63,611 nucleotides of DNA from Candidatus Igneacidithiobacillus taupoensis (lineage in GTDB: Bacteria; Pseudomonadota; Gammaproteobacteria; Acidithiobacillales; Acidithiobacillaceae), in assembly GCA_021375695.1 (NCBI GenBank), contig JAEPKX010000006.1, positions 1 through 63,611 of the forward strand, written 5' to 3'. Made by a program: the position numbers and the translations under genes. The notes below the pieces were generated by a model. It was not told the DNA's origin. It saw nothing but the letters and a program-made list of their open reading frames with translations, and did no database searches. Below, one piece after another: positions 37,370 through 42,577 of this stretch; positions within the stretch are counted from its first letter, which is position 1, and the number at the start of each line of letters is the position of its first letter.

Positions 37370-39259
37370 TCACTCCAAATAGGTGTAACCCTGCAATCCT
37401 TCTCGGTAGAAGCTCAGAAAATCCTCCCGTTGTGCAACAGGAATCTGCTCTTGCGCTGCCAATTTCGCCTCAAATTGCCGACTCAATTCCTCCGCCGAAA
37501 ACTGTACATAACGCAGCACTTCCGCGACCGTATCTCCAGGTACGGGCTCTTCTAGGCGCAGGGCTCCATTGGCTTCACAGATAACATTCACCGCATCGGT
37601 ATCACCAAAGAGATTATGCATATCGCCCAGAATTTCCTGGTAGGCACCCACCAAAAAAACGCCAAGGTAATAGGGTTCCCCATCCCGCAGGGGATGAACA
37701 GGTAAACCCGGACTCAAGCCATCACCGGTAACATAGGAATCGATACGTCCATCGGAATCACAGGTAATATCTTCCAGGCGTGCGCGGCGAAGGGGTTGCT
37801 CCAGGTGCCGATGGATGGGCATGATGGGAAAAATTTGATCGATGGCCCATACATCAGGTAAGGATTGAAACAAGGAAAAGTTGGCAAAATACTTGTCAAC
37901 CAATTTCTCTTCCAGTTCATCCAGAACTTCTCGATGGGCCCGTTTGGCCGGATCCAGCAGAGCACGACAACGCCACAGGATATGGGCATATAGACGTTCT
38001 GCTCGCGCCCGACCCGCCAGATCCAGGAGATTCAGTTTGAATTCCTGCTGCGCCTCCTGCAGCAGAAATACCGCTTCCTGGTAGATCTCCAGGGCATCAT
38101 GGGAATTGGGGGCGTGGTCGAGGCGATCGAGCAAGCGATGCCAGGGAGATGCTAGCACGGAATCCAGATCTTCCTGCAACAGTACCTCACCCGGCGCTTT
38201 TTCCACGTCGATGATGCTGAACAACAGAACGGCATGATGGGCGGTAAGGGCTCGACCCGATTCCGAAATGATTTTGGGTTCCGGCAATCCTTCCTGACGA
38301 CATACCTCTGCCAGGGCCCGGACCACAGTGTATGCATAATCTTGTAAGGAGTAATTTGTGGAACAATACGCGCGGGAATGGGTACCTTCATAGTCAACGC
38401 CAAGGCCACCGCCCACATCCACCACCTGCAGATTGGCTCCCAGTTTGCGTAATTCGGCAAATAGTCGGGCACACTCCCTCATCCCACCTTGGATATATTG
38501 GATATTGGGAATTTGTGATCCCAAATGAAAATGGAGCAACTGCAAACATTGTAAGGAGTTAGCACTGCGTAATTGGGAAAGCATTTGCAAAATTTCACTG
38601 GAGGAGAGTCCAAACTTGGATTTTTCCCCACCAGTGTTTTGCCATTTTCCCGCCCCAGCAGAGGCAAGACGGGCTCTGACGCCAATTCGGGGGCTAACCC
38701 CCAATTCGGCACTGATGGACAGAATCATTGGCAGCTCACTTGCCTTCTCTACCACCAGGTAAACTATCAGGCCCAATTTTTCACCCATCAGCGCCAAGCG
38801 AATGTATTCCGCATCTTTATAGCCATTACAAACAACCGTGCCGCCAGCTGGAGTCAGGGCAAGGACCGTCAAGAGTTCCGGTTTACTGCCGGCCTCCAAT
38901 CCCACCAATCCCTGCCCGGCCCGCAGAATTTCCTCCACCACCCGACGATGCTGGTTGACCTTGATGGGATAGACCGCCTGATAGCATCCCTTGTAAGCTT
39001 CCTCGGTGATGGCAGTGGCAAAAGCCTCCTGCAGATCACGCACCCGACGCTGGAGAATCTGCGGAAAACGCAGTAAACAGGGAAGATTGAGATTCTGTTT
39101 GCCAAGCCGCTGGACCACATCTGCAAGTCCCGCTGCATAGGGGTGATCCGTGCCTTGGGGATGGACCCATACTTGGCCATCTTCACCTATTTCAAAGAGC
39201 CCATCGCTCCACTGCCGTACGTTGTACAGCGTCCGCGCGCATTGCACCGACCAGTTCAT
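37370..39259 (-). CDS. speA: Biosynthetic arginine decarboxylase
   Basis: A 629-residue fold-III PLP enzyme that makes agmatine for polyamine synthesis. The PLP lysine is in YPIKVNQHRRVVEEIL near 100, and GLEAGSKPEL, DVGGGLGVDYEGTHS, SESGRALTAHHAVL and the C-terminal LVGAYQEILGDMHNLFGDT follow in order. GAGGAGG precedes ATG at 39259. No speB or agmatine deiminase is in view. The 166-bp gap upstream, up to olsA, should hold its promoter, but I could not find a clear one. Confidence 0.95.
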   Translation of the reverse strand: MNWSVQCARTLYNVRQWSDGLFEIGEDGQVWVHPQGTDHPYAAGLADVVQRLGKQNLNLPCLLRFPQILQRRVRDLQEAFATAITEEAYKGCYQAVYPIKVNQHRRVVEEILRAGQGLVGLEAGSKPELLTVLALTPAGGTVVCNGYKDAEYIRLALMGEKLGLIVYLVVEKASELPMILSISAELGVSPRIGVRARLASAGAGKWQNTGGEKSKFGLSSSEILQMLSQLRSANSLQCLQLLHFHLGSQIPNIQYIQGGMRECARLFAELRKLGANLQVVDVGGGLGVDYEGTHSRAYCSTNYSLQDYAYTVVRALAEVCRQEGLPEPKIISESGRALTAHHAVLLFSIIDVEKAPGEVLLQEDLDSVLASPWHRLLDRLDHAPNSHDALEIYQEAVFLLQEAQQEFKLNLLDLAGRARAERLYAHILWRCRALLDPAKRAHREVLDELEEKLVDKYFANFSLFQSLPDVWAIDQIFPIMPIHRHLEQPLRRARLEDITCDSDGRIDSYVTGDGLSPGLPVHPLRDGEPYYLGVFLVGAYQEILGDMHNLFGDTDAVNVICEANGALRLEEPVPGDTVAEVLRYVQFSAEELSRQFEAKLAAQEQIPVAQREDFLSFYREGLQGYTYLE

Positions 39260-39425: not shown

Positions 39426-40343
39426 TTAACGTTGGTGATGACGACGATGCCAATTATTCCAGACTTCGCGAAGGCGATGGCGCTGCGGGTCCAGATAGGT
39501 GATTTCTGCACCCTCCTCCATGGACCGCAAGGAGTCACGAATAACACGCCGGCACTCTTTTGCCAATTCGCGACGACCAAGGTCTGGACCCAATGGGTTT
39601 CCAAAGTAGATGCGCAGTGTCAATGGCGCCAAGGCCATCATGCGCCAGAGGTGTCCGGCTAGGGAATCTTCGCCAACAAAAGGACAAGTTTGATCGGCAT
39701 GCCCTGGACAAAGAATATCCTCATAACGCAGGCTAACAGGAACTACCATTGCCCCGGCAATGACGGCTGTCTCAAAAGGGGCCGCGTAGAAATCCCCTAC
39801 ATCCCGTCCATCACTGGTGGTTCCCTCCGGGAAAATGCATAAAAATCGCTCCTGTTCCAGCACTGAGGCCGCCTCTTTGAGTAATCGCTGGCTAGCCCTG
39901 GCATCGCTGCGATCGATAAAAAAGGTTCCAAGTCGCCTGGCCAAGCTTCCAAATACCGGCCAAGACTCCATCTCTTTCTTGGCGACAAATTGCCCCGGTC
40001 GGAGGGCGGCCAATGCCAGGATATCCAGATAAGAAATATGATTGGCAGCAATCAGCGCTGGACGGCTGGGTAGGTTGCCTGCAACGCGAAGGCGAATCCC
40101 CAGGATCCGAAGGGCAACGCAACACCACCAGCGGAAAACGGACAAAGCCCGCGAGTTGATTTGCCCCTTTTTGCCGTAGTACCACCACGCCAACGGAAAG
40201 GCGATGAGCAGATGCAGGAACAGTGCTGGTAAACGCCATAGACGACGATAGCCCCGAGGTTGACTGCGACGAAGGGTACGCTTGGGGTACGGAATCAGTT
40301 GCGCCGAGGTGGAATGCGCTTGAGCCGGACGGCGAAAGATCAT
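39426..40343 (-). CDS. olsA: 1-acyl-glycerol-3-phosphate/lyso-ornithine-lipid O-acyltransferase (OlsA-like)
   Basis: A 305-residue PlsC-family enzyme with a hydrophobic segment near 42-60 and the catalytic box ANHISYLD (NHxxxxD) near 100. The substrate-binding FPEGTTSDG is near 172. Overlap by 4 bp with an olsB gene points to O-acylation of lyso-ornithine lipid. General phosphatidic-acid synthesis by the same enzyme is possible, as OlsA proteins often do both. Residues 1-40 are strongly basic. The C-terminal Arg/His-rich tail is unusual. Confidence 0.85.
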   Translation of the reverse strand: MIFRRPAQAHSTSAQLIPYPKRTLRRSQPRGYRRLWRLPALFLHLLIAFPLAWWYYGKKGQINSRALSVFRWWCCVALRILGIRLRVAGNLPSRPALIAANHISYLDILALAALRPGQFVAKKEMESWPVFGSLARRLGTFFIDRSDARASQRLLKEAASVLEQERFLCIFPEGTTSDGRDVGDFYAAPFETAVIAGAMVVPVSLRYEDILCPGHADQTCPFVGEDSLAGHLWRMMALAPLTLRIYFGNPLGPDLGRRELAKECRRVIRDSLRSMEEGAEITYLDPQRHRLREVWNNWHRRHHQR

Positions 40344-41119
40344 TTGCCGTACTGCGCAGGTTCCAGGAAACGCTGCTGATAACGACTGGTGATCAGCTGT
40401 GCGTCACACCAGACAAAGAAATCCGCACAATGAAATTGTGGATCCCAAAATGGCTCTCCGCCAATACGTACTCCGGCGCGAAGGTATCCTTTGATCAGGC
40501 CTGGCAACTCTTCCGCCTTGACTGCTGCCGCAGGATCGAATCCGGGTATAGGGCGAAGGGGGAAAACCCTTTGCTCAACGGGTACCAGATGCGGTTCCAG
40601 CGAGCGATACAGAGCACCCAGGGCAGGACCATCGGTGCTATGGACACTGGCGCAACCCATGAGATGATCAATTTCCCACATGCTCATGGCCTCGGCCAGG
40701 CCAGACCACAACAAAACAATGACTGCCCCCTGTCGATAATCTGGATGGACACAGGAGCGACCCAATTCCATGATTCGGCTACCCAGGGCCAAGGGACGAG
40801 AAAGATCAAATTCCGTCTCGGCGTAATATCGCCCGACCTTGGCGACTTGTTCGGGCAAGAACAGGCGGTACGTGCCTACCACCTCTTGTCTGACCTCATC
40901 CTCAACTATCAGGTGCTCACAGAAAGGATCATATTCATCCTGATCCAATCCTGGCGGACCACTGAGTTGTGCCCCAAATTCAGCACTGAAAACCCGGTAA
41001 CGCAGACGTTGAGCCGCCTCAACTTCATCTTGATGTCGGGCCAGATACAAACGCAGGGAACGCTCTCCCTTGCGCGTATTACAATTCATACCTTTATCTG
41101 TTTGGGGTGGATTGAGCAT
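40340..41119 (-). CDS. olsB: Ornithine-acyl-ACP N-acyltransferase
   Basis: A 259-residue GNAT-fold protein. AAQRLRYRVFSAEFGAQL, DEYDPFCEHLIVED, VVGTYRLFLPEQ and ELGRSCVHPDYRQGAVIVLLWSGL match OlsB, which acylates ornithine with 3-hydroxy-acyl-ACP to lyso-ornithine lipid. ATG at 41119 has GGGAGAG eight bases upstream; ATGs at 41140 and 41089 are weaker. A tandem PHO box lies just upstream, so expression should rise when phosphate is scarce and replace phospholipid with a phosphate-free lipid. It starts 148 bp beyond purA. Confidence 0.87.
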   Translation of the reverse strand: MLNPPQTDKGMNCNTRKGERSLRLYLARHQDEVEAAQRLRYRVFSAEFGAQLSGPPGLDQDEYDPFCEHLIVEDEVRQEVVGTYRLFLPEQVAKVGRYYAETEFDLSRPLALGSRIMELGRSCVHPDYRQGAVIVLLWSGLAEAMSMWEIDHLMGCASVHSTDGPALGALYRSLEPHLVPVEQRVFPLRPIPGFDPAAAVKAEELPGLIKGYLRAGVRIGGEPFWDPQFHCADFFVWCDAQLITSRYQQRFLEPAQYGK

Positions 41120-41171
41120 CACAGGCTCTCCCAGATTCATTTGCAGACCAATGACAGTATGACCTCAAATT

Positions 41172-41211
41172 ATGACAAGAGTGCGACACTTTGATGACAG
41201 TTTTATGACAG
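41172..41211 (-). promoter_or_regulatory. Tandem PHO box (PhoB binding site) for olsB-olsA
   Basis: Read on the minus strand, CTGTCAT, CTGTCAT, GTGTCGC and TTGTCAT begin at 41211, 41200, 41189 and 41178, exactly 11 bases apart. Each is followed by the AT-rich 4-base tail typical of a PhoB half-site, so this is two adjacent PHO boxes. Less regular GGTCAT and CTGTCAT copies continue at 41165-41151. A CATACT hexamer (41161-41156) about ten bases past the box is a suitable -10. Confidence 0.82.

Positions 41212-41266: not shown

Positions 41267-42577
<1,311 letters not shown>

Follow-up and report, generated by a model that had tools for sequence, protein, structure and literature searches.

Control of olsB by PhoB through a PHO box is a type of regulation already known in many bacteria. 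Acinetobacter baumannii carries a PHO box at olsB, induces the gene strongly at low phosphate and requires PhoR (PMC11828411). The olsBA operon of Pseudomonas aeruginosa, a species that also has PlcP, is summarised in PMC9804370, citing Lewenza 2011, as raised at low phosphate. A putative PHO box lies at Agrobacterium olsB, and lipid remodelling in Agrobacterium and Sinorhizobium involves PhoR-PhoB, PlcP and, in addition, betaine lipids (PMC3972451), while Vibrio cholerae reaches the same end by way of olsF under PhoB (PMC12186959). The original prediction placed PhoB control of olsB in rhizobia; the control is not peculiar to that group, being reported in gammaproteobacteria as well (PMC11828411, PMC9804370).

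Here we describe the olsB locus of Candidatus Igneacidithiobacillus taupoensis, an acidophilic member of the Acidithiobacillaceae, within a window of 63,611 nucleotides (the whole stretch of DNA that was analysed; Table 1). It resembles A. baumannii in having a PHO box before olsB, P. aeruginosa in having an olsBA operon, and Agrobacterium and Sinorhizobium in combining an olsB PHO box with PhoR-PhoB and a PlcP-like gene. By contrast, olsA of A. baumannii lies elsewhere and is not phosphate-regulated (PMC11828411), and olsA and olsB occupy separate loci in Agrobacterium and Sinorhizobium (PMC3972451), whereas the olsA-like gene described here overlaps olsB and should be co-induced with it. Relative to P. 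aeruginosa, the difference lies in the acidophilic host and in plcP, which is PHO-led in many Acidithiobacillus and not clearly so in this genome. In the literature that we searched we found no report of a PHO box in Acidithiobacillus, and an environmental lipid survey was the only work found there to name both Acidithiobacillus and ornithine lipids.

Table 1. Coordinates of the olsB promoter and its neighbouring genes, numbered from the first letter of the window.
Feature	Position	Strand	Basis or remark
PHO half-site 1	41201..41211	-	CTGTCATAAAA; sequence and matrix scan
PHO half-site 2	41190..41200	-	CTGTCATCAAA; sequence and matrix scan
PHO half-site 3	41179..41189	-	GTGTCGCACTC; CGCAC invariant in the family
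PHO half-site 4	41168..41178	-	TTGTCATAATT; matrix scan
-10 hexamer CATACT	41161-41156	-	6 nt past half-site 4
Predicted transcription start	41149	-	inferred from the -10 position, about 7 nt past the -10
Ribosome-binding site GGGAGA	41127..41132	-	sequence; relatives have GGAGA or a comparable stretch of purines before the same ATG
olsB-like, ornithine N-alpha-acyltransferase	40340..41119	-	Pfam Acetyltransf_5 (PF13444), 4.9e-34; open frame from 41140
olsA-like, lyso-ornithine-lipid O-acyltransferase	39426..40343	-	4-nt overlap with the end of olsB
purA	41267..42556	-	upstream neighbour, 55 nt from the PHO box

The array runs from 41211 to 41168 on the minus strand, within the 126-bp gap between the end of purA (41267) and the olsB open frame, and its four half-sites follow one another at exactly 11-bp spacing. 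Their TGTCAT-type hexamers lie at 41205-41210, 41194-41199, 41183-41188 (reading TGTCGC) and 41172-41177, a regularity that had already been noted and that is far beyond chance. The -10 reads CATAAT or CATACT in most relatives. The -35 position, 17 nt from the -10, is filled by GCACTC (41179-41184), the last six bases of half-site 3, and has no consensus -35 hexamer. Two looser copies proposed as further half-sites did not survive comparison with relatives: GGTCAT (41164-41159) belongs to the -10 region, which relatives keep as TCATAAT or TCATACT; TGTCAT (41156-41151) overlaps the -10 and is present only in this genome among the relatives examined. The -10 therefore does not lie downstream of both copies, where it had been placed.

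The start codon of olsB is probably the ATG at 41119, which relatives share together with its ribosome-binding site, and we rejected the ATG at 41140 for the same reason; a start at 41119 leaves about 30 nt of 5' leader. The encoded protein has two OlsB models as its best NCBIfam matches, yet scores below both equivalog cut-offs (167.1 against 350 and 144.6 against 320); the names of these models suggest that they are taxon-specific. An alignment covering 88% of the query shows 35% identity to a protein of Sinorhizobium meliloti encoded next to a malic-enzyme gene; we take this protein to be the OlsB of that species. The neighbouring OlsA likewise falls below its curated NCBIfam cut-off, with an Ols model as its best match and a fitting Pfam family. 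Best models, Pfam families and gene overlap together support the designations OlsB-like and OlsA-like, as does the record of ornithine lipids in Thiobacillus thiooxidans (references in PMC4484230).

To place the array in its genomic context we used an 11-bp half-site matrix whose weights were set by hand from the published consensus after the olsB site had been seen. In a scan of the genome (1,731,744 bases in 62 contigs), a check proposed with the original prediction, the olsB array is the best four-half-site match at 45.3, the runner-up scoring 39.9. The best scores in six first-order Markov genomes of equal size were 14.3-19.0, the maximum in 3 Mb simulated with local composition was 24.8, and the same matrix applied to the real genome at spacings of 8-10 and 12-15 reached at most 27.3. 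A two-half-site pattern with 2 mismatches is by itself common enough in the window (7 observed, 4.5 expected) to lend something to the idea that the repeats arose by chance or from low-complexity sequence; it was too weak for a significance test, and the four-half-site matrix was used in its place. Against that idea, which we regard as having practically no chance of being right, stand both the four-half-site statistics and conservation across genera, the footprint of which already refutes it.

Orthologues of OlsB are found in 27 of 29 family genomes, in all four genera sampled, the named relatives being Acidithiobacillus and Igneacidithiobacillus. Array and -10 are kept at a fixed distance in 26 of 27 olsB promoters examined, so that the 11-bp repeats, whose absence upstream of orthologues would have spoken against the prediction, are a family feature. 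Array scores in these 26 promoters range from 19.4 to 45.4, against 8.3-19.5 for the simulated references (the best of 300 simulations per promoter), and each exceeds its own simulations. The lowest belong to two genomes of one genus (G024 and G025), in which the array is degenerate (19.4-19.7) and still above its own simulations; the one promoter without an array is that of a second olsB copy in G005, a genome with 7% contamination. Between two genera, identity is 25% in the 60 nt upstream, 70-83% in the half-sites, 81% in the -10 and 24% in the next 24 nt: the sequence flanking the conserved array has diverged to chance level. The olsB PHO box is thus real, strong and conserved in the family.

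CGCAC in half-site 3 and the leading CA of the -10 are near-invariant in the family despite departing from consensus, and we read them as a putative tuning of the olsB promoter. Elsewhere in the genome, eleven PHO promoters have a -10 that begins with TA. A CA-starting hexamer is also present, at equal distance, in plcP promoters of Acidithiobacillus.

The genome holds about 15 distinct four-half-site sites, the olsB site and some 14 others, with C14:20551-20616 and C25:66619-66662, identical sequences at contig ends, counted as one. Among the genes that they lead are pstS (TIGR00975, 347 bits, cut-off 205), pstB (TIGR00972, 397, cut-off 343) followed by phoU, a phosphate/H+ symporter-like MFS gene, three TonB-dependent receptors, two OprD-like porins, one solute-binding protein and the exbB-exbD-tonB row described below. 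From this phosphate-scavenging gene set the motif can be recognised as a PHO box. Just upstream of pstB-phoU lie phoB and phoR, whose products score above their curated cut-offs (PhoB, TIGR02154, 309.4 against 296.2; PhoR, TIGR02966, 365.5 against 334.2). Eleven further PHO promoters with an unambiguous array have their -10 6 nt past the last half-site, as olsB does, and the aligned promoters have no TTGACA at the -35 position in half-site 3. This is the expected picture at promoters where PhoB takes the role of the -35 element.

Direct repeats of 10-11 bp are common targets of OmpR-family regulators, and the array might accordingly be the site of another response regulator of the OmpR/PhoB family, with a signal other than phosphate driving olsB. 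The genome does encode other response regulators, at 166-192 bits to the PhoB model, as well as an unusual winged-helix regulator whose gene (C39:40283, on the contig that we label C39) is itself led by a PHO box. We nevertheless judge this explanation to be quite improbable, given that the identical motif and spacing lead pstS, pstB and phosphate-transport genes and that the half-site unit agrees with the published PHO consensus CTGTCATNNNNCTGTCAT (PMC11828411, PMC8528852).

With the array in 26 of 27 family promoters, PhoB above its cut-off and the same motif ahead of pstS and pstB, the predicted reading as a PHO box is well supported, and we are highly confident that the olsB promoter is a PhoB-activated sigma-70 promoter serving olsB-olsA at phosphate shortage; induction of olsB by PhoB is very likely. 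What the sequence itself shows is an array that exceeds chance, is conserved and belongs to a pst-led gene set, in a genome with phoB and phoR. PhoB binding, induction and the lipid change are inferred. At low phosphate, PhoR would phosphorylate PhoB, and two PhoB dimers would occupy the four 11-bp half-sites, the lower pair covering the -35 position. As there is no consensus -35 hexamer, PhoB would recruit RNA polymerase to CATACT via sigma region 4, and transcription from about 41149 would run through olsB and the overlapping olsA. OlsB would then N-acylate ornithine with a 3-hydroxy fatty acid and OlsA would add the second chain, yielding a phosphorus-free ornithine lipid that could replace part of the membrane.

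This wiring extends well beyond the family. Of 29 more distant olsB genes, taken from other gammaproteobacteria and 37-65% identical, 22 are preceded within 250 bp by a four-half-site array (p<=0.01 against simulation). For every one of the 29 except one, the opposite strand gives the lower score, usually by a wide margin. PHO-box wiring of olsB is therefore widespread in the class rather than peculiar to rhizobia or new to this host. The S. meliloti olsB-like gene served as a weak positive control for the hand-set matrix: its site, two half-sites scoring 12.6, outscores all others in the 5.7-kb locus and is far below that of the host.

The prediction also held that phosphate limitation should exchange phospholipids for ornithine lipids. 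Such replacement requires that phospholipid be removed, and it is plausible because a PlcP-like metallophosphoesterase gene is found family-wide (29 of 29 genomes), with PHO boxes nearby or paired with a glycosyltransferase gene. A two-half-site PHO box lies close upstream of the PlcP-like gene in 13 of 30 loci, all outside the host genus. In Igneacidithiobacillus, the gene is paired with a glycosyltransferase gene, as in plcP-agt loci (PMC4796936, PMC8528852), and the gap upstream of it also holds a PHO box that faces a divergent gene. No clear PHO box directed toward plcP was found in the host genome (best score 12.5), the box in the gap facing the divergent regulator gene. The host PlcP-like gene and its GT4 glycosyltransferase neighbour lie at C39:38348-40200 on the minus strand, resembling a plcP-agt pair. 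The best-annotated named relatives of the PlcP-like protein, P. aeruginosa plasmid copies at 49% identity among them, carry no label other than UDP-2,3-diacylglucosamine diphosphatase; the PlcP-like and glycosyltransferase assignments go by similarity and neighbourhood only.

PhoB could also boost olsB while ornithine lipid is made constitutively, by read-through from purA or from a second upstream promoter, so that no real swap occurs. The end of purA, which has the same orientation, is separated from the PHO box by 55 nt, and no terminator-like site was found in those 55 nt. Works of 1978 and 1983 in the references of PMC4484230 describe ornithine lipids in Thiobacillus thiooxidans, a relative of the host that bears an old name within this bacterial group, and P. 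aeruginosa growing under ordinary conditions contains 2-15% ornithine lipid (PMC9804370). The PlcP-like gene in all 29 genomes and the PHO box near 13 of 30 loci point the other way, to phospholipid removal at low phosphate, and we consider constitutive production rather unlikely. Returning to lipid replacement, it is possible, and we propose it tentatively, that the Acidithiobacillaceae have a PhoB-run phosphate-sparing membrane programme comprising OlsBA, the PlcP-like enzyme and, in some genera, a glycolipid made by the adjacent glycosyltransferase, with the olsB promoter as a tuned sub-type that has an invariant CGCAC at the -35 and a CA-starting -10, the latter shared with Acidithiobacillus plcP. 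Should PhoB control of olsB act as proposed, phosphate supply would determine what the membranes are made of in a family with bioleaching uses, and the lipid make-up of the membrane may bear on acid and metal tolerance.

Three further observations concern other genes. Downstream of olsA, after 166 nt, lies speA (biosynthetic arginine decarboxylase, 825 bits; 37370-39259, minus strand). The PHO-led regulator on contig C39 (C39:40283-41207) has a PhoB-type winged helix, its front domain is not identified by Pfam as a receiver, and a strong PHO box is kept in its gap in most genomes of the genus. Finally, a PHO box (C39:41199 onward) leads a row of exbB, exbD, tonB, a ribonuclease T2 gene and a PF04185 phosphoesterase gene, apparently a TonB energiser dedicated to the phosphate-starvation response.
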